Position numbers and translations under genes: made by a program
Shown here: positions 8,913 through 17,933 of the stretch, in pieces
How positions within the stretch are numbered: position 1 is the first letter of the stretch
How the letters are laid out: each line of letters begins with the position of its first letter
Notes under the pieces: model-generated
The model's database searches: none
Seen by the model: the letters and a program-made list of their open reading frames with translations, nothing else
What the model was told of the DNA's origin: nothing
DNA from: Candidatus Krumholzibacteriota bacterium
GTDB taxonomy: Bacteria; Krumholzibacteriota; Krumholzibacteriia; JAJRXK01
Assembly: GCA_024276305.1 (NCBI GenBank)
Contig: JAJRXK010000051.1
Span: 1 to 64,000, forward strand
Direction: 5' to 3'
Length of the DNA: 64,000 nucleotides

Positions 8913-9569
8913 TCAACGCACGGCGGTTCGCTTGGGATCGCCATCTCTCGATACCAACAAGATCGCCACTCCCGCGGCCGCGGCTGCGAGCCAGAACTTG
9001 GGCGACCGAATCGTCGCTCCGGCCAGATTGGGCTCGTGCAGCAATACGCTCTCGACTTCGGCCAACTCGAGTTGGGTCGCATTCTCCCAGTCTTCGTTCT
9101 GGGTCAGGAGAAGGTAGAGCCCGGTGGGATCGAGACGGGCTTGGCTTGGGGGCTCGTCGAGTCGGTAGGTCTGACCGTCCTTCATCACGATCCGCTCAAG
9201 GGGGGGGAGAGTGACGAAAGATCTCAGATCCTCGGGAGTACGGACCTTGGTCCAGTGCAGGCGATCGGCGTCATCCCTCCACTCGATGCCCTCGACCTGA
9301 GCCAGGGACCAGATGGCGGTTCCGAACCGCGATCCGGAGGCGCGGAGGCTGTCCTTGCGCAGACTGAGGGTCTCCTGGCTGGTCAGCGTATAGCTACTGC
9401 CGTCCTCGAAGAGGATCTTCGTCGCGCGGGCGAGGGGGATCGTGGCCCCATCGGCATCCACCGGGGTTCGACTGTAGAGGAGAGGTTGGGCGGAGCAGCC
9501 GATGAAGGCCCCAGCCAGGCCCAGACTCAGCCACAGCGCGGCCGTGCGCAGGTGTGAGATCGAGAGCAT
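8913..9569 (-). CDS. Hypothetical lipoprotein with C-terminal membrane segment
   Basis: I do not recognise a family. The 218-residue product has a signal sequence ending in a lipobox-like FIGC (Cys25). A beta-rich middle (repeated short segments such as ILFEDGSSYTL and IVMKDGQTYRL that look like paired strands of one repeat unit) follows, and then a C-terminal hydrophobic segment (FWLAAAAAGVAILLV) with a short basic tail. The two FEDGSSY/MKDGQTY segments hint at an internal duplication. It is convergent with thiS and divergent from the operon starting at 9694. Confidence 0.75.
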   Translation of the reverse strand: MLSISHLRTAALWLSLGLAGAFIGCSAQPLLYSRTPVDADGATIPLARATKILFEDGSSYTLTSQETLSLRKDSLRASGSRFGTAIWSLAQVEGIEWRDDADRLHWTKVRTPEDLRSFVTLPPLERIVMKDGQTYRLDEPPSQARLDPTGLYLLLTQNEDWENATQLELAEVESVLLHEPNLAGATIRSPKFWLAAAAAGVAILLVSRDGDPKRTAVR

Positions 9570-9942: not shown

Positions 9943-10436
9943 TCGCGGCCCTGCGTCGCGGCCACCGCAGGGCGGTGGTGGTGGGGTGGATGGTGCTGCC
10001 CCCTCTGGTGCTTCTGGCTTTCTTCGCACGCCCAGTTCCCCTCCGGTCGGTGCTCCCGTCGACATTGATCGAATCCTCCCCGGACCCGAGCCAGGAGTGG
10101 TTCCACTCTTCCGGACTCTTCGAAGAAGTGCCGCTCGACACGAAGATCTCCACGACCACCGATGGCGTCTCGGTGTTGAGCCTGCGGGCCAGGTCGCCAT
10201 TGTCCTTCCCCCAGCTCCTGGTCTACTGGCGGCCGGAGCTTGCCCCTGGGTCCGAAAGCTCCTCGGTGGAGGGTGCCGATCTTCTCGGAATCCTCTCGGG
10301 CCGGGGGGCGCATCGTCTGCTGTTTCCTTCACTGTGGAAGGGAGGGGGGCAGGTGATCCTCTACAGTGTGGGACGCGCGGAGGTGGTGGCGAGTTCATCG
10401 GTGCTTCCGTTCCCCGCACCGGAGGGCCGTCCGTGA
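9939..10436 (+). CDS. Membrane-anchored hypothetical protein
   Basis: This 165-residue protein has a basic N-terminus (LRRGHRR), one TM/uncleaved signal segment (VVVGWMVLPPLVLLAFFA) and a ~125-residue domain predicted outside the cytoplasm. No family is recognised. It is coupled to both neighbours by 4-bp overlaps (ATGA at 9939, GTGA at 10433). Its position directly before the ferric-reductase/Rieske fusion suggests a partner or electron-acceptor-facing subunit, but nothing in its own sequence (no Cys pair, no CxxCH) shows cofactor binding. Confidence 0.7.
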   Translation: MIAALRRGHRRAVVVGWMVLPPLVLLAFFARPVPLRSVLPSTLIESSPDPSQEWFHSSGLFEEVPLDTKISTTTDGVSVLSLRARSPLSFPQLLVYWRPELAPGSESSSVEGADLLGILSGRGAHRLLFPSLWKGGGQVILYSVGRAEVVASSSVLPFPAPEGRP

Positions 10437-11464
10437 CCCACACCTACGTGGCCGTGCAGTGGAATCGACAGAAGCGTCGCTACGACCTGGCGGTCTTGGT
10501 CGCGCTTCTGTCCACACTGGGGGCCTTCGTGGCCCTGGGGAAGTGGGTGCGTCCGCATGCGACGGCAGAGACTCTTCTGATTCGAGGCACCGCGGTGAGC
10601 GCTTGGGCGCTGCTCCATCTGATCCTGAGTCTCGGCCCCTTGTCTCGTCTGGATTCGCGGTGGTTGATTCTGCTCTACAATCGCCGCCACTTGGGAGTCA
10701 CCTTCTTCCTCGTCTGTTCCGCACACGCCGCATTGAGCCTGATGCAATTCCATGGCTTCGGGGACATGAATCCGTTGTTGAGTCTGCTCAGTTCCAATGG
10801 ACGATTCACGAGTCTGACGAATCATCCCTTCCAGCTTCTCGGTGCGGGTGCATGGATCATCTTTCTGTTCATGGCGGTCACCAGTCATGATTTCTGGCTG
10901 GCTCATCTCACCGCGCCGGTTTGGAAGGCGCTCCACATGGGGATCTACCTGGCCTATGCTCTGGTCCTCGGCCATGTCGCTCTGGGGTCGGGACAGAGTC
11001 AGAGTGGGGTCGTGTTGGCGATGGCCGGTGGGGGTGCGTTATGGATTCTGTCGCTCCACTCCTTGGCCGCACTCCGAGAACACCAGGTCGATCGCAGGGC
11101 CCGCGGGCAGCAGAATCGAGACGGCTGGATCGAAGTCCCCTCCCCTCAAGACATCGTGGAGGGGCGCGCGCGGCTGGTCGAAGTGGCCGGCGAACGGGTC
11201 GCGGTATACCGGCGGGGAGAAGAGTATTGGGCCCTTTCGAATGTATGCCAGCATCAGAACGGTCCGCTCGGCGAAGGCTGCATCCTCGAGGGGAAGGTGA
11301 CCTGCCCGTGGCATGGATTCCAGTACGACCCCACCACTGGTGCAGCGCCGCCTCCCTACACCGAGAGGGTGCCGACCTTCGATCTTCGATGGGAAGGCCA
11401 TCGGCTCTACCTTTCGACCGTCGCCCGCCCCGCTCCGTCGCTGTCCACCACCGGAGGACGATGA
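10433..11464 (+). CDS. Ferric-reductase-like transmembrane cytochrome b fused to a Rieske [2Fe-2S] domain
   Basis: A 343-residue fusion. Residues ~15-225 form about six TM helices of the ferric-reductase/MsrQ type with His residues placed for heme b (in ALLHLIL, CSAHAAL, KALHMGIY and VLGHVAL). Residues ~240-335 are a Rieske domain with both ligand pairs present: C272-H274 (CQH) and C291-H294 (CPWH). This is the layout of a membrane electron carrier passing electrons between a heme pair and an iron-sulfur centre. Known relatives of the TM part include MsrQ, which feeds MsrP from the quinone pool. The start is a GTG overlapping the previous stop. There is no MsrP or oxygenase gene beside it; acyltransferases follow instead. 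The substrate is unknown. Confidence 0.88.
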   Translation: MTHTYVAVQWNRQKRRYDLAVLVALLSTLGAFVALGKWVRPHATAETLLIRGTAVSAWALLHLILSLGPLSRLDSRWLILLYNRRHLGVTFFLVCSAHAALSLMQFHGFGDMNPLLSLLSSNGRFTSLTNHPFQLLGAGAWIIFLFMAVTSHDFWLAHLTAPVWKALHMGIYLAYALVLGHVALGSGQSQSGVVLAMAGGGALWILSLHSLAALREHQVDRRARGQQNRDGWIEVPSPQDIVEGRARLVEVAGERVAVYRRGEEYWALSNVCQHQNGPLGEGCILEGKVTCPWHGFQYDPTTGAAPPPYTERVPTFDLRWEGHRLYLSTVARPAPSLSTTGGR

Positions 11465-11465
11465 G

Positions 11466-12218
11466 TTGAGCGGCGACCCGGAGTTCTACGTTGGCCATGC
11501 CGACTCCGTATCGCCGGTCCTCGGGCGCGCGGCGATTCGGCGATGGGCCGCCGTGATGGGGGTGGTGATCTCGGTGGCCCTCGTCTTCGCCGTTGCTCAA
11601 GAGGATCTGCCTCCGAAGTACTTCGAATGGGACCGGGTCCGTTCCTTCGAGGGTCGCATTCGACTGGAGCCGACCCCTCATCTGATGGTCGACCTTCCCA
11701 GCTCGGACCACTCGGTCCGTTTGGCCCTGGTGGGTCCGCGAAAGTCGGGGGCGCGGAGCTTCGTCGAGGAATTCGACGGAGAGCGGGTCCGACTGGATGC
11801 GCACCTCCTCTATCGGGATGGTCGGACCATGGCCGAAGTGGTGCCGGAGTCGGTCCACCGCCTCGGTCGCGGGGCCTCCGATCCGGTGGACTCGGGTCTC
11901 TCCCTGGGCCCGGTGTCTCTCGAGGGCGAGATCGTCGACACCAAATGCTTTCTGGGAGCCATGAATCCGGGGCGGTCCAAGGTGCACCGGGCTTGTGCGG
12001 TGCGGTGCATCTCGGGGGGAATCCCGCCTGCGCTCTGGGTGCGTGGTCAGGACGGGGGTGCGGTGGTATTGTTGGTGGATTCCGAGGGTCGGTCGGTGAA
12101 CGACCGAGTCCTGGGGATGGTGGCGGAGGGAGTGCGAATTCGAGGGGAGCTTTGGCGCTACGATGATCTATTGGTGCTACGCAGTGATCCGGAAGACTAT
12201 CAAAGGTTGAGTCGATGA
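11466..12218 (+). CDS. Membrane-anchored protein with conserved Cys-rich motif, unknown function
   Basis: The 250-residue protein has a single N-terminal TM segment (WAAVMGVVISVALVFAVAQ) and a beta-rich exported part. Near residues 158-190 it has a dense motif with three cysteines (C161, C177, C181), H174, M166 and a GGIPP end, spaced C-x15-C-x3-C. I have the impression of a conserved uncharacterised family but cannot name it. The residues would suit metal or heme/FeS-linked chemistry, which is inference. The start TTG (11466) is chosen for GGAGG at 11453-11457; the ATG at 11461 is out of frame and stops at once. It overlaps olsB by 4 bp. Confidence 0.7.
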   Translation: MSGDPEFYVGHADSVSPVLGRAAIRRWAAVMGVVISVALVFAVAQEDLPPKYFEWDRVRSFEGRIRLEPTPHLMVDLPSSDHSVRLALVGPRKSGARSFVEEFDGERVRLDAHLLYRDGRTMAEVVPESVHRLGRGASDPVDSGLSLGPVSLEGEIVDTKCFLGAMNPGRSKVHRACAVRCISGGIPPALWVRGQDGGAVVLLVDSEGRSVNDRVLGMVAEGVRIRGELWRYDDLLVLRSDPEDYQRLSR

Positions 12219-13057
12219 ACGAGGAAACCCACGCGCCGCTCGTCGGGGCGCTCCAGGACTTGGACTATCCGCAGATGCCCGAATCCCTTCCCCGGTGGGA
12301 GTCGGAAGATGCGAAGTATCGCTGTCGCTTCGCCGCCTCCATCGGCGACTTGGAAGCCGTCCTGCGCTTGCGCTATCGGGTGTTCAACCTCGAGCTGAAC
12401 GAAGGACTCGAGGAGTCTCACCGGTTGGGAATCGACATCGATCGTTTCGATCCGCAGTGTCATCACCTGATGGTCGAGCACCGGGCCACCGGTGAGGTCA
12501 TCGGCACCTATCGTCTTCAGACCCATGCCATGGCGGTCCGAGCCGAGGGCTTCTACTCCGCCAACGAATTCCAATTCGAGATGTGGCCCCCGGGGATCCT
12601 CGAACACGCCACCGAGTGCGGGAGGGCTTGCATCGAGGAGCACCATCGGCACCGGAGCGTTCTTCTCTTGCTCTGGAAGGGATTGGGGGCCTATGTGGTC
12701 CACAACCAGCATCGATACTTCTTCGGATGCTGTTCGCTGACCAGTCAGGATCCCGCGGAGGCCGCCCGAACTCTGGAGTACCTCCGGCAGAAGGGACACC
12801 TGCACCGCGATCTCGACCTGGATCCCCGTCCCGACTACGACTGCTGCGAGGGGCAGCATTCGATCGAAGGGTGGGAATCGGTTCGGCTTCCCACCCTGTT
12901 CCGGACCTATCTGCGTTACGGTGCCCGAATCGTGGGCCGGCCGGCCTTGGACCGAGAGTTTCGCACCATCGATTTTCTGGCCCTGATGGACCTCCAGGAG
13001 CTCGATCCGGTCCGAGTCCTCCGGCAGTTCCAGGTCGATCTCCACCAGCAGACATGA
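12215..13057 (+). CDS. olsB: OlsB-like N-acyltransferase (ornithine lipid-type, GNAT superfamily)
   Basis: OlsB transfers a 3-hydroxyacyl chain to the alpha-amino group of ornithine, the first step of ornithine lipid synthesis. The 280-residue product has the family landmarks: LRLRYRVFN near residue 50, GEVIGTYRL, GFYSANEF, ECGRACIE, and LLLLWKGLGAYVV followed by RYFFGCCSL. The next gene is a PlsC-type acyltransferase, the expected partner (OlsA). The amino acid used cannot be told from sequence; related PF13444 enzymes acylate other amino acids. The start ATG overlaps the upstream stop (ATGA), as does its own stop with the next gene. Confidence 0.82.
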   Translation: MNEETHAPLVGALQDLDYPQMPESLPRWESEDAKYRCRFAASIGDLEAVLRLRYRVFNLELNEGLEESHRLGIDIDRFDPQCHHLMVEHRATGEVIGTYRLQTHAMAVRAEGFYSANEFQFEMWPPGILEHATECGRACIEEHHRHRSVLLLLWKGLGAYVVHNQHRYFFGCCSLTSQDPAEAARTLEYLRQKGHLHRDLDLDPRPDYDCCEGQHSIEGWESVRLPTLFRTYLRYGARIVGRPALDREFRTIDFLALMDLQELDPVRVLRQFQVDLHQQT

Positions 13058-13854
13058 TCGTTCGCTTCCGCGCCGCGACGAGAGCCGTGGTTCTGGCGCT
13101 CTTCTTGGGGGCGTGGTTCCTCCTCTATTGGATGGGGCGGTTGTTCTGTTGGAACTCCCGGTCCCGGCGGTGGTGGAGGCGCCACTACATGCAAGACGGT
13201 GCGCGGATCACCTTGCATCTGCTGGGAGCCCGAGTCGCAGTTCGAGGCCGTGCCCCCGACCGCGCCTGCATCGTGGTCTGCAACCACTTGGGCTATGTCG
13301 ATGTGATCGTCCTGGCCAGTGTGGCCAGAGTGGTCTTCGTATCCCGGGCCGACGTGGAGTCGTGGCCGGGCGTGGGTCCGCTGACCAAGAGCGCGGGCAC
13401 GATATTCCTGGATCGGCAGCGCAGTCGCTCGATTCCCCGAGCTCTCGACAGGATGCGGCGAGCGGTCTCGGACGGGAGCGGAGTGGTATTCTTCCCCGAA
13501 GGAACCAGCAGCGACGGTCGAGATCTCTTGCCTTTTCGGTCCTCCCTCTTTCAGGTGGCCATCGAGATGGGCGTGCCGGTCTGCTGCGCCGCCTTGGCCT
13601 ATCGCACTCCGGCGGGCGAGAGGTCCCCCGAGGAGGCGGTGGCGTGGTGGCAGGATGACCTCGACTTCTTTCCCCATTGTTGGCGTCTGCTCTCGCTCTC
13701 TTCCTTCGAAGCTCGGGTGAGCTTCACCGAGGGTCGGATCGAAGTGTCGGAATCCACGGATCGGCGAAGTCTCTGTACCGAGGCCGAAGGTCGAGTTCGA
13801 CGGGCCCTCCAAGATCTGAAGGCCGATGTGCCGAATGAAGGCGTCGCACGATGA
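13054..13854 (+). CDS. PlsC-type acyltransferase, candidate lyso-ornithine lipid acyltransferase (OlsA role)
   Basis: The 266-residue membrane-associated acyltransferase has an N-terminal hydrophobic segment (VVLALFLGAWFLLYWMGRLF), the catalytic HX4D motif (NHLGYVD) and the FPEGTSS motif. The family transfers a fatty acyl chain to a hydroxyl, as in 1-acylglycerol-3-phosphate or lyso-ornithine lipid. Placement immediately after the OlsB-like gene with a 4-bp overlap supports the OlsA role, but a phosphatidic-acid role cannot be excluded from sequence. The stop again overlaps the next start. Confidence 0.88.
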   Translation: MIVRFRAATRAVVLALFLGAWFLLYWMGRLFCWNSRSRRWWRRHYMQDGARITLHLLGARVAVRGRAPDRACIVVCNHLGYVDVIVLASVARVVFVSRADVESWPGVGPLTKSAGTIFLDRQRSRSIPRALDRMRRAVSDGSGVVFFPEGTSSDGRDLLPFRSSLFQVAIEMGVPVCCAALAYRTPAGERSPEEAVAWWQDDLDFFPHCWRLLSLSSFEARVSFTEGRIEVSESTDRRSLCTEAEGRVRRALQDLKADVPNEGVAR

Positions 13855-16415
13855 AGACCCGAGGGAAGTGGTGGAAGAGGAAGCGGTGGATCTGGGGGAT
13901 CTATTTGCTTCTCCTCGGGCTGCACCAGTGGGGAGGGTTCTCGGACCTGCGAGGTCACGATTCGCCACGCGGTCTTGGAGTCCAGGTGCCGCGCGCGGAG
14001 GGCAGCCGCGACCGTGTCGAAGTTCGCATCACCGAGGACGGGGCCGCGGATGCGCCGGTGCTGCTCTTGGTGGCCTTCGATTCCGACACCGACTCGGAGC
14101 TGGATGCGCAATTGAGGGCGCTGGTTCGGGACCACCGAATTCGGATCTGGCAGGTCGATCTTCGGGCCCTGGCCCAGGAGGTTTCGCCCCCGAGTTTCGA
14201 GGGTCTGGCGTCCCGACTGCGAGCGGTGGTGGAGGCGGAGGGCTCTCCTCCTCTGTCCATGGTGGCGACCGCCGACGCGGCGGCGGTCGCGATCCACTGC
14301 GCATCGGAGCTCGACCCCGCGCCGCAGGCTCTGGTGCTCTGGGGTGGAAGCGGGGTTCAGGAATTCGATCTTCTGGGCAGCCATGAGCTCAACCATGTTC
14401 TCTACTCCCTGCAGTGGGTGTTGCTGACGGCATCGAACGAGCTTCTGCCACACTTCGGAGCCTTGCCATTCTTGGCCCACGCCGCCCAGAACGCACGCAT
14501 CCGCATGCAGAGCGACCGTCGCCTGCTGCGCGACGCCATCCGCCGGTTGGGAATGCCGGTCCTCATCGTCCATCGCGCCCGCGATCCTCATGTCGGAGTG
14601 GCGGTGGCGCGGGAGCACGCCCGCTTGATCCCGCAGGCTCGACTCCAGGTCCTCGGGCCGGGAAGTACGGCTCCTTCGCTCGGTGAGTGGTTGGACGAGG
14701 CGAGGCGAGGCGAAATCCCCCGACGCTCCGACGCCACCGCGGAACGGATCGAGGCTTCTCGGGCCGAGCTGGGTCGCGGAGAGTGGGTCCAAGCCCATGG
14801 TCGAACTCTTGGACTGCTGATCTTTCTTCTGGTCCTGGGCACCTTCATCACCGAAGACCTCACCTCCATCGCCGCGGGGTTGCTCATCGCCGATGGACGA
14901 CTGACCTGGGCGCAGGGCCTGGGTGCGGTCTTCTGCGGGATCTATTTCGGTGACCAGTCCTTGTATTTGATCGGACGCATCGCACGCCGCAACATCGTGC
15001 ACCGGCGACCGTGGAAGTGGGTGCTGCGAGGAGAGGATCTCGACCGGGCGGCTCGGTGGTTCGAAGAGAAGGGGCTGGTCGCCATCCTGCTCACTCGGTT
15101 CATTCCGGGAACGAGATTGCCGACCTATGTCGCGGCCGGAGTGGTTCGGGCTGGCTATTGGCGTTTCGCAGCCTACTTCTTCGTGGCGGTCGCGCTGTGG
15201 ACTCCTCTTCTCGTGGGCTTCTCCGCGCAGGTCGGAGGAGAGGCTCTCGCGCGTCTGCAGGGCTTTCGGCGGGGATCCCTCTTGGTCCTTGCGGTCGTCG
15301 CCTTGGTGATCCTGGTCTGTCTGCGCCTCCTCCTTCCGCTGTTCACCGACCGAGGCCGTCGAGAACTCTGGGCTCGGTGGCAACGGTGGACTCGGTGGGA
15401 GTTCTGGCCGCCGGCAATGATCTACGGCCCGGTCTTGGTTCGAATCCTGGGCTTCGCATGGCGCCATCGGAGCCTTCGGGTGGTCACCGCCGTCAATCCG
15501 GGGATCGCGGCGGGCGGACTGATGGGCGAATCGAAGTTGGCCATCCTCGACGCCCTCGGGGGAGAGGGAGAACACGTCCCTCCTTACCAACGGATTCCTC
15601 CCGGGGATGCTCGATCCCAGCGAGAGGTTGCGGAGGCTTTCCTGAGTCGTGCGGATGTGGGACTGCCCATCGTCATCAAACCGGATTCCGGCGAACGCGG
15701 ACAGGGAGTCGTCGTGGTGCGGCGGCTCGAGCAGCTCGATGAAGTTCTCCGGGGTTCGGGGACGGCGTGGATTGCCCAGCGTTACGTGGAGGGGCTCGAG
15801 TTCGGCATCTTCTATCTGAGGGAGCCGGGAGAGTCGGCCGGTCGGATCTTCAGCATGAATTCCAAGGAGCGATTGTGTTTGCGCGGCGATGGCATCCACG
15901 ACCTCGAACACCTCGTTCTCCACGATCCACGGGCATCCATTCTGGCGAAGATCCACCTTCGGGCCAACGTGGATCGCTTGGGATCCATTCCCGCCGAGGG
16001 CGAGGAGGTGGAGATCGTGGAGATCGGAGCGCATGCCCGCGGGACGGTGTTCCGCGACGCGCGGGATCTGGTGACTCCAGAGCTCACGCGGGCCATCGAT
16101 CGTCTCTCCCGGAGATTCTCCGGATTCCATTTCGGGCGCTATGACGTGCGCGTCCCCGACGTCGAGGCTCTGCGCGAAGGTCGAGACTTTCAGGTTCTCG
16201 AACTCAATGGCCTCACCTCCGAGGCCGCGCACATCTACGAGCCCGGCTTTTCGCTGCGAGAAGCTCGACGGACGCTGACCGAGCAGTGGCGTCTGGCCTT
16301 CGAGATCGGAGCCGCGAATGCCGCAGAGGGCCACCGCCCTTCCACTTGGCGTGAGCTCCTGGATCTGTGGTCGCAATATCGAGAGGCGGCTCGTCAGAGG
16401 CCGCCGGCCCACTGA
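13851..16415 (+). CDS. Three-part fusion: alpha/beta-hydrolase-like domain, DedA/VTT membrane domain, ATP-grasp ligase domain
   Basis: An 854-residue protein. Residue ~12 onward is a TM anchor. Residues ~50-300 look like an alpha/beta hydrolase fold (VLLLVAF strand, VLIVHRARDPHV acid-loop strand), but the nucleophile-elbow region (around residues 137-146, VATADAAAV) has no GxSxG serine, so this part is probably non-catalytic. Residues ~320-500 are a DedA/VTT domain with LTRFIPGTRLP, the family's RxxPGxR-type signature. Residues ~525-835 are an ATP-grasp domain: VIKPDSGERGQG as phosphate loop, then RYDVRV and VLELNG supplying the metal ligands. DedA proteins are known lipid flippases and ATP-grasp enzymes join a carboxylate to an amine. 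After the OlsB/PlsC pair this suggests amino-acid modification and flipping of an aminolipid (inference). Confidence 0.85.
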   Translation: MKTRGKWWKRKRWIWGIYLLLLGLHQWGGFSDLRGHDSPRGLGVQVPRAEGSRDRVEVRITEDGAADAPVLLLVAFDSDTDSELDAQLRALVRDHRIRIWQVDLRALAQEVSPPSFEGLASRLRAVVEAEGSPPLSMVATADAAAVAIHCASELDPAPQALVLWGGSGVQEFDLLGSHELNHVLYSLQWVLLTASNELLPHFGALPFLAHAAQNARIRMQSDRRLLRDAIRRLGMPVLIVHRARDPHVGVAVAREHARLIPQARLQVLGPGSTAPSLGEWLDEARRGEIPRRSDATAERIEASRAELGRGEWVQAHGRTLGLLIFLLVLGTFITEDLTSIAAGLLIADGRLTWAQGLGAVFCGIYFGDQSLYLIGRIARRNIVHRRPWKWVLRGEDLDRAARWFEEKGLVAILLTRFIPGTRLPTYVAAGVVRAGYWRFAAYFFVAVALWTPLLVGFSAQVGGEALARLQGFRRGSLLVLAVVALVILVCLRLLLPLFTDRGRRELWARWQRWTRWEFWPPAMIYGPVLVRILGFAWRHRSLRVVTAVNPGIAAGGLMGESKLAILDALGGEGEHVPPYQRIPPGDARSQREVAEAFLSRADVGLPIVIKPDSGERGQGVVVVRRLEQLDEVLRGSGTAWIAQRYVEGLEFGIFYLREPGESAGRIFSMNSKERLCLRGDGIHDLEHLVLHDPRASILAKIHLRANVDRLGSIPAEGEEVEIVEIGAHARGTVFRDARDLVTPELTRAIDRLSRRFSGFHFGRYDVRVPDVEALREGRDFQVLELNGLTSEAAHIYEPGFSLREARRTLTEQWRLAFEIGAANAAEGHRPSTWRELLDLWSQYREAARQRPPAH

Positions 16416-16450
16416 TGCGGTGATCGCCCTGCGCTTCGGAGACCGCTTCC

Positions 16451-17353
16451 TCAGGGTTCGGCGGACTGAAGGGGAATCGGACGGCCCACCCCGTCGAAGA
16501 TGACGTAGTGGTCGGGGTCGTAGCGTCGAAAGGCCACTTTCGAGTGCTCGACGACCTTCTCGAGGAGGCCGTCGAGCTGAGCCATGGCGAAGGTCGCGAT
16601 CCAGCTCTCCGGAATGGATCCTCCCACGTCTGCGCTCACTCGGTAGGCGAGGAGGGTGCGCTCCCGATCGAGGGCGAAGAGAATCCAGGCCCCCCGGTTC
16701 ATGGGGACGTAGACTGCCTTGGCGAGATCCTCCAGCCGGAGGTCCCCTGCTCGGCCTCCGGCCACGGTCGCCCGGGCGATCTCGGGACCGTTGTCGACCA
16801 GATTCCAGCTGTGTTGCCACACGAATCCCTCCGTCCGCCGGGCCAGATCGGAGTCCTTCTGAAGTTCGATCACCCAGTAGCGGTCGGAGACCGGCCAGGG
16901 GAGCGAGATGTACTGGAACCACAGACTCCCTCCTTCCGCATTCTGCCGCAGTCGGACCTCGGTGAGGAGATCACTCCCCTCGAAATCCGGATCCAGAGCG
17001 GCCAGCCAGACATGAGTTCGGGGAGCCTCGACGAGGGAGTAGCCGACCACCTCTTCGCGGTGGCCCTTCTGGCTGTGCTCGCTGGGGAGAGTCTTGCGCA
17101 CTTTGACGATGCGATGGTTGGCGAGACGATCGAGCTGCTCGGAGTCGAGAAAGGGAAGGGGCGTGTCCGCGAAATCGTTGTAGACTTCCAGCGCTGCAGC
17201 GAGGAGTTCGCGGTCTGTGTACTCGTGCTCCTCGGCGAAGGCAGAGACGACCGACCCGACGACGACTGCAACGACGAGCAGCGCCAGAATGCCGCTGCAC
17301 GGCGTCCTTCCTTTTGCTGGGAGCCGGAGACCATTGACCGATCGTGTGCGCAT
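16451..17353 (-). CDS. Exported START/SRPBCC-like domain protein
   Basis: The 300-residue product begins at the ATG at 17353, has a hydrophobic export signal (GILALLVVAVVVGSVVSAFA, cleavage likely after SAFA) and a ~240-residue domain resembling START/SRPBCC lipid-binding folds (alternating strands with YWVIEL, FVWQHSWNLVDNG, and a C-terminal helix FAMAQLDGLLEKVVEHSK). Such domains bind hydrophobic ligands in a deep pocket; none can be named here. Its start region overlaps the 5' end of orn on the other strand by 20 bp, so the two promoters must lie inside each other's genes or start annotations are slightly long. Confidence 0.7.
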   Translation of the reverse strand: MRTRSVNGLRLPAKGRTPCSGILALLVVAVVVGSVVSAFAEEHEYTDRELLAAALEVYNDFADTPLPFLDSEQLDRLANHRIVKVRKTLPSEHSQKGHREEVVGYSLVEAPRTHVWLAALDPDFEGSDLLTEVRLRQNAEGGSLWFQYISLPWPVSDRYWVIELQKDSDLARRTEGFVWQHSWNLVDNGPEIARATVAGGRAGDLRLEDLAKAVYVPMNRGAWILFALDRERTLLAYRVSADVGGSIPESWIATFAMAQLDGLLEKVVEHSKVAFRRYDPDHYVIFDGVGRPIPLQSAEP

Positions 17354-17933
17354 CCTGCAACCCCTGGTGTGGATGGACCTGGAAATGACCGGGCTCGATC
17401 CCGACCAGGACCGCATCCTGGAAATCGCCGTTCTGGTGAGCGACGGCCAACTCTCCCGAGTCATCGAAGGCCCCGACCTCGTGATCCATCAGCCGGCGGA
17501 AGTTCTCGACGCCATGGACGAATGGAATACGCAACACCACGGCGATTCGGGACTCTCTCGCACGAGTCTCGCCTCATCCGTCGACTGCGCCGAGGCGGAA
17601 CGTCAGGTATTGGACTTCATCACTCCCCTCTGCGAGAAAGGCCAGGCGCCGCTGGCCGGGAATTCGATCCACCAGGACCGGGCCTTTCTGCGTCGCTACA
17701 TGCCGAAACTGCACGACTATCTCCACTATCGCAATGTCGATGTCTCCACCGTGAAGGAGTTGCTCCGGCGGTGGGGGCCCGCGGTTCTGGAGGCGGCACC
17801 GGAAAAGTCCGATCGCCACCGAGCGATGGCGGACATCTACGATTCGATGGCCGAATTGCAGTACTATCGCAAAACCGCCTTCGAATCCGGCCTTCGCTCC
17901 CCGGATTCGAGCGCTGATGCAGAGACACCATAG
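17334..17933 (+). CDS. orn: Oligoribonuclease (DEDDh 3'-5' exonuclease)
   Basis: Orn degrades di- and short oligoribonucleotides, including pGpG from cyclic-di-GMP turnover. The 199-residue product shows WMDLEMTGLD (first Asp/Glu pair), AGNSIHQDRAFLRRYMP (the third motif region) and SDRHRAMADI (His and last Asp), completing DEDDh. The start is a TTG at 17334 after CGGAGA; a GTG at 17346 is an alternative. A hairpin that includes its TAG stop probably terminates transcription. Confidence 0.95.
   Translation: MTDRVRILQPLVWMDLEMTGLDPDQDRILEIAVLVSDGQLSRVIEGPDLVIHQPAEVLDAMDEWNTQHHGDSGLSRTSLASSVDCAEAERQVLDFITPLCEKGQAPLAGNSIHQDRAFLRRYMPKLHDYLHYRNVDVSTVKELLRRWGPAVLEAAPEKSDRHRAMADIYDSMAELQYYRKTAFESGLRSPDSSADAETP

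Follow-up and report, generated by a model that had tools for sequence, protein, structure and literature searches.

The first 64,000 nucleotides of contig JAJRXK010000051.1, from assembly GCA_024276305.1 of a Candidatus Krumholzibacteriota bacterium, were analyzed as a single stretch, referred to here as the window. On its forward strand an open reading frame (ORF) at positions 13851-16415, running from ATG to TGA, encodes a protein of 854 residues that joins an α/β-hydrolase-like part, a DedA/VTT domain and an ATP-grasp part in one chain. A first-pass annotation of the DNA had claimed this three-part chain, and the ORF, its domain matches and its relatives bear the claim out. The fusion and its parts are as follows.

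13851..16415, + strand: 854-residue fusion of membrane anchor, α/β-hydrolase-like part, DedA/VTT domain and ATP-grasp part
13887..13943, + strand: N-terminal hydrophobic anchor, residues ~13-31, preceded by a K/R-rich stretch (from sequence and hydropathy)
13986..14750, + strand: α/β-hydrolase-like part, residues ~46-300, with Ala141 at the nucleophile position and Asp245 kept
14778..15350, + strand: DedA/VTT domain, residues ~310-500, with E335, D368, R416 and P419 kept
15363..16412, + strand: ATP-grasp part, residues ~505-854, with a hydrophobic segment after EFWP, then GESK (K562), K610, R763-x-D765 and E784-x-N786

Full-length relatives of the fusion occur in genome G001 from the same genus (45% identity, E = 2.3e-194) and G003 from the same family (42%, E = 7.0e-187), so the ORF is not a product of chance. 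It is overlapped by an antisense ORF of 1107 residues at 13599-16922; long antisense overlaps are common at the guanine-plus-cytosine content of this region (0.65 over 14001-16000), and the forward strand was chosen because homology supports it. The N-terminal anchor is weak in the window (hydropathy <1.2), with values of 1.52 in G001, 1.38 in G003 and 1.92 in a further fusion from genome G271.

VTT (PF09335) matches residues 337-459 at 57.4 bits against a cut-off of 33.9, the sole Pfam cut-off that the fusion passes. Equivalents of E335, D368, R416, P419 and G430, which we take to be core acidic and basic residues of DedA proteins, are invariant in 19/19 aligned VTT domains, and with R416 and P419 among them the DedA signature RFIPGTR is intact, as had been read from the sequence. 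The best NCBIfam match of this part is UptA, at 48.2 bits against an equivalog cut-off of 250; the domain thus resembles UptA-type DedA transporters in passing the VTT cut-off and is unlike them in its distance from the UptA model. The fused DedA domain is likely a lipid flippase.

The ATP-grasp part of the window protein passes no Pfam family cut-off (best match RimK, 16.9 of 21); below cut-off, the single sequence matches RimK, TTL and ATP-grasp_3, and cyanophycin synthetase at 2.8e-6. Eight further ATP-grasp-containing proteins gave sub-cut-off matches or none, with the G271 fusion as an exception narrowly above the CPSase_L_D2 cut-off (20.6 of 19.8). A profile (A5) built from 23 relatives nevertheless matched solved ATP-grasp enzymes, best the RimK-domain protein 8fxh (3e-13), then 7ta5 (4.2e-12) and cyanophycin synthetase 7txv (2.6e-8), with the KP, GDG and E-x-N motifs in alignment. 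The Lys of P-x-x-x-K-P, GDG, G-R-x-D and E-x-N-G are invariant in 23/23 sequences (K610, R763, D765, E784 and N786 in window numbering), presumably as catalytic Lys and metal-binding Asp, Glu and Asn, and a second Lys in G-E-S-K (K562) is nearly so. The motifs RYDVRV and VLELNG, earlier called intact, are upheld by this invariance, and R763, D765, E784 and N786 are likewise unchanged in the three triple fusions of the window's family of genomes. Four separate ATP-grasp proteins each carry a moderately hydrophobic stretch within residues 27-47 (1.28-1.59, against a stricter line of 1.6). The ATP-grasp part is likely a lipid-modifying ligase.

In the α/β-hydrolase-like part, VATADAAAV at the elbow lines up with VGFSMGGGV in the G003 orthologue, which places Ala141 at the Ser position; the same column holds Gly, with Gln adjoining, in G001. 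The nucleophile Ser is present in 9/11 aligned hydrolase parts (three of the nine from Paracoccus), and its loss is confined to the window's genus. The catalytic His column is absent from the window alone among the 11, and the HGxPG loop is not preserved there; the Asp (D245) is conserved in all 11, leaving only this member of a Ser-His-Asp triad in the window protein. A frameshift behind the lost nucleophile was rejected, since a profile of the G001, G003 and G271 hydrolases matches frame 0 (3.4e-35, searched against three sequences) and neither of the other forward frames. The G001 and G003 proteins pass the PF00561 cut-off. The window's hydrolase part shares 29-31% identity with those of the other three triple fusions, its DedA part 39-55% and its ATP-grasp part 46-49%; among those three, the corresponding values are 39-41%, 38-44% and 43-47%. 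The hydrolase is thus the most diverged of the three domains, the other two being about as close or closer, and its lower identity points to a part that is decaying or repurposed in this lineage. It looks catalytically dead and drifting in the window's genus, for which the missing nucleophile had been correctly noted; the further suggestion that this part binds substrate only holds at most for that genus and not for the family, which mostly retains a third likely activity since the hydrolase is intact in most relatives. In G355, G111, G410 and G412, where the hydrolase is a separate protein, hydropathy indicates a hydrophobic, signal-like stretch before the hydrolase part, and this usual N-terminal stretch suggests that the separate enzyme is probably periplasmic. 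As an internal control, a profile comparison of the ATP-grasp and hydrolase parts showed no relation.

Upstream of the fusion lie four genes on the same strand.

13054..13854, + strand: OlsA/PlsC-like O-acyltransferase (PF01553), its stop overlapping the fusion start (ATGA)
12215..13057, + strand: OlsB-like N-acyltransferase (PF13444), with an ATGA overlap with the OlsA-like gene
11556..12218, + strand: Cys-containing protein with a hydrophobic N-terminus and a conserved K-C...H-R-A-C-A-x-R-C-x-x-G-G-x-P-P
10421..11464, + strand: ferric-reductase-like transmembrane plus Rieske protein, start approximate

Consecutive ATGA overlaps join the genes from the Cys-containing protein to the fusion. 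Like the genes of the OlsB/OlsA ornithine-lipid pathway, the two directly upstream genes match PF13444 and PF01553 above cut-off and have OlsB and OlsA as their best NCBIfam matches. In the passages of the pathway literature available, an ATP-grasp, DedA, hydrolase, Rieske, Cys-containing, DinB-like or TANGO2-like protein is not named among its parts.

The fusion family is present in 3/80 genomes of the window's class and phylum, and G002 of the same family is without it. Seven of 387 genomes, mostly from outside the phylum, gave a match (window, G001, G003, G271, G355, G111 and G257); the G257 match, which is weak and partial, lies close to the end of a contig and is accompanied by no other module, was dropped from the counts. 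The ATP-grasp occurs in 8/68 genomes of the phylum of G355, 1/5 of the class of G271 and 1/5 of the phylum of G111. In a plasmid collection 28 records from seven genera matched, of which 13 spanning all seven genera were inspected. The triple fusion is found in four genomes (window, G001, G003 and G271), which cluster together (support 100/100) in a tree built from 23 ATP-grasp parts, despite G271 lying outside the phylum and being related to the window genome at domain level only. Elsewhere the same parts are arranged differently: Azospirillum has a DedA-ATP-grasp fusion, Vibrio, Photobacterium and Salinivibrio have VTT and ATP-grasp as separate neighbors, and Paracoccus has ATP-grasp, hydrolase and DedA as separate neighboring genes. 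In Paracoccus denitrificans PD1222 these three are PDEN_RS24485, RS25810 and RS24475, respectively, and the fused gene of Azospirillum sp. B510 is AZL_RS33690. The architecture did not turn out to be a common annotated family, since only the shorter DedA-ATP-grasp fusion is annotated, and in Azospirillum records it is labeled solely as a "VTT domain-containing protein". In an Azospirillum thermophilum record (L022, 7359-9016) the DedA-ATP-grasp region is annotated as two overlapping genes in different frames, which, compared with other Azospirillum, is a break in frame or an error of assembly. A contig scan with the single window protein gave one locus, L014, on an archaeal contig, with the DedA part alone matching; the A3 profile found no relative in viral contigs, and a phage collection gave no match.

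Gene context connects the ATP-grasp to OlsB. Cassette genes were called with profiles built here (E up to 1e-4) and tblastn. Across 13 genome loci including the window, a VTT domain is fused to or adjoins the ATP-grasp in 12/13 (the G412 gene is cut), an OlsB-type gene is present in 12/13, an OlsA-type gene in 10/13, with two contigs ending before it, and a hydrolase in 8/13. The 13 plasmid stretches hold VTT in 10, an OlsB-type gene in 3 (3/7 genera) and a hydrolase in 3, all Paracoccus. In the window's phylum, PF13444 occurs in 3/78 genomes, the same three that carry the fusion, in one cluster each. In the phylum of G355 it exceeds the Pfam cut-off in 18/68 genomes and E<1e-20 in 10/68, a line for strong OlsB that was drawn after inspecting the table; all eight ATP-grasp genomes are among these 10, with OlsB next to the ATP-grasp on the same contig (hypergeometric value 6e-9, uncorrected for relatedness). 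The same link is seen again in Vibrio, Photobacterium and Variovorax, where gene orders differ. The fusion therefore very probably belongs to an ornithine-type aminolipid pathway. A lipid substrate had been proposed from the start, and one of the ornithine-lipid type gains support from this context across phyla, although the substrate itself is one that we infer.

The surroundings of the ATP-grasp gene at these loci are listed below.

Window: Rieske-ferric reductase, Cys-containing protein, OlsB, OlsA, triple fusion
G003: order as in the window, plus a DinB-like gene ahead of the fusion
G001: OlsB, OlsA, fusion; without Cys-containing protein; Rieske match partial, opposite strand
G271: OlsB, OlsA, DinB-like, fusion; Rieske and Cys-containing genes not found
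G355: Rieske-ferric reductase and Cys-containing protein (one open frame), DinB-like, NRDE/TANGO2-like, DedA-ATP-grasp, OlsB, OlsA, hydrolase
G439, G419, G432: G355 order, no hydrolase in the available stretch; the G439 contig ends soon after OlsA
G440, G423: G355 order until the contig end after OlsB; G423 starts inside the Cys-containing gene
G410: DinB-like through hydrolase; Rieske and Cys-containing genes not found
G412: cut ATP-grasp, OlsB, OlsA, hydrolase
G111: DedA-ATP-grasp gene with a divergent hydrolase as sole companion
Vibrio, Photobacterium: DedA, ATP-grasp, DinB-like, NRDE, small genes, OlsF-like gene
Salinivibrio: DedA, ATP-grasp, DinB-like, NRDE
Variovorax (L025 6092-11080; L035): haem-oxygenase-like iron enzyme, methyltransferase, ATP-grasp, OlsB, LplT
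Komagataeibacter: ATP-grasp adjoining genes annotated as iron-containing redox enzyme and methyltransferase
Rieske-ferric reductase and Cys-containing pair: window 10421-12218; both in L044, L047, L057, L060, L061 and L062; second gene only in L058

Together these loci apparently define a cassette of up to eight genes: Rieske-ferric reductase, Cys-containing protein, DinB-like, TANGO2/NRDE-like, DedA-ATP-grasp, OlsB, OlsA and α/β hydrolase. The Vibrio OlsF-like gene scores 428.2 bits against an OlsF model cut-off of 620, and the Photobacterium one is matched solely by the OlsB profile. Both NRDE proteins tested pass TANGO2 (PF05742), and the DinB-like proteins fall slightly under Pfam cut-offs. 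The VTT profile found none in the 17-kb Variovorax stretch; the LplT there passes its NCBIfam equivalog cut-off (446.5 against 297 bits), and its presence beside ATP-grasp and OlsB fits the need for a lipid translocase.

From sequence and context, we give an even chance to the proposal that the fusion couples a ligase for lipid head groups with a translocase of its own in an ornithine-lipid-type pathway, with putative substrate, activity and topology as follows. On the inner leaflet, the OlsB/OlsA pair would synthesize an acyloxyacyl amino-acid lipid. Tethered to the membrane by a hydrophobic segment of its own, the ATP-grasp part would convert a carboxylate into an acyl-phosphate at the expense of ATP and couple the lipid to a small molecule through an amide bond, either by adding an amine to the free α-carboxyl of the lipid, as in ornithine-taurine lipid, or by adding an amino acid to the lipid's amine. 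The fused DedA domain could then carry the product to the outer leaflet, where the α/β-hydrolase, probably periplasmic, may cleave or trim it, a step that the ancestral enzyme would have carried out in the manner of AcvB. Modification and translocation in a single step, as first suggested for the joined ligase and flippase, would be consistent with this scheme. With an apparently dead hydrolase, the pathway in the window's genus would lack the trimming step or keep the domain as a scaffold. More tentatively, and with well short of even confidence, we speculate that a tRNA-independent, MprF-like machine both synthesizes and exports a conjugated lipid of the ornithine type, such as an ornithine-taurine one, within an apparently undescribed cassette of up to eight genes that is scattered across phyla.

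Several points weigh against this proposal. The co-occurrence of OlsB and the fusion in the window's phylum may be a single inherited event, and in the phylum of G355 two genomes, G442 and G449, have strong OlsB and no ATP-grasp, so that OlsB can be independent of it. Azospirillum, Paracoccus, Komagataeibacter, Salinivibrio and G111 have no OlsB-type gene in the stretch fetched, and the Komagataeibacter ATP-grasp has neither VTT nor OlsB nearby; with such a gene missing near 4/7 plasmid genera and G111, the substrate of the ATP-grasp may be a lipid of a more general kind. The upstream genes of the window are far from the NCBIfam equivalog cut-offs (120.9 of 320 for the OlsB-like protein and 141.8 of 300 for the OlsA-like one), so the amino acid may not be ornithine. 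The Paracoccus hydrolase in L023 has no predicted membrane segment, which opposes a periplasmic location there. A single-sequence structure prediction of the full 854-residue chain gave no confident structure (mean predicted local distance difference test score 39.4, predicted template modeling score 0.25) and is the basis of no conclusion.

An alternative hypothesis puts ligase and flippase at the two ends of the pathway: the ATP-grasp makes a head group in soluble form (a dipeptide or a modified amino acid), OlsB acylates it, and DedA moves the finished lipid. OlsB adjoins the ATP-grasp, the closest solved relatives (RimK-domain protein and cyanophycin synthetases) are peptide-type ligases, and the Vibrio and Variovorax proteins give sub-cut-off matches to D-Ala-D-Ala ligase. 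Fusion to a flippase, however, makes the ligase a membrane-bound enzyme, an arrangement for which a soluble product offers no reason, and the hydrophobic segment of the four separate ATP-grasp versions, though moderate, argues the same way; we regard this order of events as unlikely. A second alternative concerns the hydrolase, which in the relatives could be an OlsI-type acyltransferase adding or exchanging an ester-linked fatty acid rather than a head-group hydrolase. We find this quite improbable, as 7/8 hydrolase-holding genome loci (all but G111) already contain a PlsC/OlsA-like gene for that step, and signal-like hydrophobic stretches occur on the separate hydrolases from four genomes. 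It is slightly less probable again that DedA is an ordinary recycler of undecaprenyl-phosphate or phospholipid and that the ATP-grasp modifies a cell-wall precursor, with OlsB/OlsA sharing regulation only. UptA as the best NCBIfam match of the DedA part, the name "D-alanine--D-alanine ligase" given to the separate ligase in some records, and the four plasmid genera without OlsB nearby would agree with this, but the UptA cut-off is missed, the OlsB link holds in 12/13 genome loci and three plasmid genera with differing gene orders, and no cell-wall gene was noticed among the identified cassette members, though none was searched for. Very improbable is a degenerate, sensory ATP-grasp part, with the neighbors making the lipid and DedA left with transport alone, for although the window protein passes no Pfam ATP-grasp cut-off, its Lys610, Asp765, Glu784 and Asn786 equivalents are invariant in 23/23 sequences, unlike the decayed hydrolase.

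As a ligase joined to its own translocase, the fusion would resemble MprF/LpiA with an AcvB/VirJ-type hydrolase, in which, in the sources as far as available, a head-group transferase is joined to a lipid translocase with an α/β hydrolase alongside. LpiA, as synthase and flippase, and the periplasmic α/β hydrolase AcvB share one operon in the portion of PMC13135905 available. In place of an aminoacyl-tRNA transferase and the MprF flippase domain, the window fusion has ATP-grasp and DedA; the hydrolase is in the same chain, and the cluster is OlsB/OlsA-like rather than one with phosphatidylglycerol as substrate. We infer that it parallels MprF/LpiA with AcvB in function while being built of unrelated parts and independent of aminoacyl-tRNA, which suggests a second way to build this synthase-flippase-hydrolase team. 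LPG_synthase_C (PF09924), the MprF synthase domain, was found in 0 of 1 for the window's own genome (97.87% complete) and in 7/14 in the control rings. A DedA protein fused to an MprF soluble domain is mentioned in the available part of PMC11980842, likewise pairing DedA with a lipid head-group enzyme, for which the fusion described here has an ATP-grasp.

The taurine of the ornithine-taurine lipid cerilipin is linked to the free α-carboxyl of ornithine lipid. Gluconobacter belongs to the Acetobacteraceae, as does Komagataeibacter, which carries the ATP-grasp. Cerilipin comes from Gluconobacter cerinus (PMC4484230, PMC6669457, both as partly available), and the ornithine-taurine lipid of this genus is also treated in the accessible text of PMC12493201. 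The head group of cerilipin contains a second residue, and the additional bond that this requires could be made by an ATP-dependent ligase; the passages available hold no gene assignment for that bond. To connect the ATP-grasp with cerilipin is a guess; if it were true, the ATP-grasp would be a candidate gene for the second bond of ornithine-taurine-type lipids.

The open-licence PubMed Central literature yielded no description of a DedA-ATP-grasp architecture and no paper pairing DedA with ornithine lipid or the VTT domain with ATP-grasp; in the one co-mention of ATP-grasp and ornithine lipid, as far as its text was available, ATP-grasp is confined to a reference list. The passages available do not answer by what route ornithine lipid and other aminolipids get to the outer leaflet, or which enzymes assemble their larger head groups. 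A DedA-joined ligase beside OlsB/OlsA-like genes would be a candidate for both tasks, translocation and head-group building, and links some DedA proteins with one particular lipid pathway. A cassette common to distant bacteria points to an undescribed way of making and moving ornithine-type lipids and, if this is true, would give bacterial TANGO2 relatives a lipid context and may give the DinB-like and TANGO2-like families a biochemical setting.

Further observations concern the companions of the fusion. The Rieske-ferric reductase and Cys-containing genes accompany the cassette in two phyla and form one open frame in G355 and G419; a redox tailoring step is a possible role for the pair. The Cys-containing protein, which has no Pfam match in its longer frame (11313-12215) and no NCBIfam match, shows the spacing C-x15-C-x3-C with HRACA and GG-x-PP. 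DinB-like and NRDE/TANGO2-like genes adjoin DedA and ATP-grasp genes in L024 (9057-10361), L026, L032, L033, L044 and L057-L062. By annotation, Komagataeibacter has counterparts of the first three Variovorax genes, with the ATP-grasp divergent from the other two. An anti-phage defense role was rejected, PADLOC giving no match for the fusion or its two upstream neighbors. Downstream, a convergent protein at 16451-17464 (- strand) has no Pfam or NCBIfam match; it was not found in the other 17 loci searched and is 53% identical over 251 residues to a protein downstream of the fusion in G001. A lipoprotein-like protein at 8913-9569 (- strand) has a counterpart upstream of the G001 cluster, with 35.5% identity over 200 residues.

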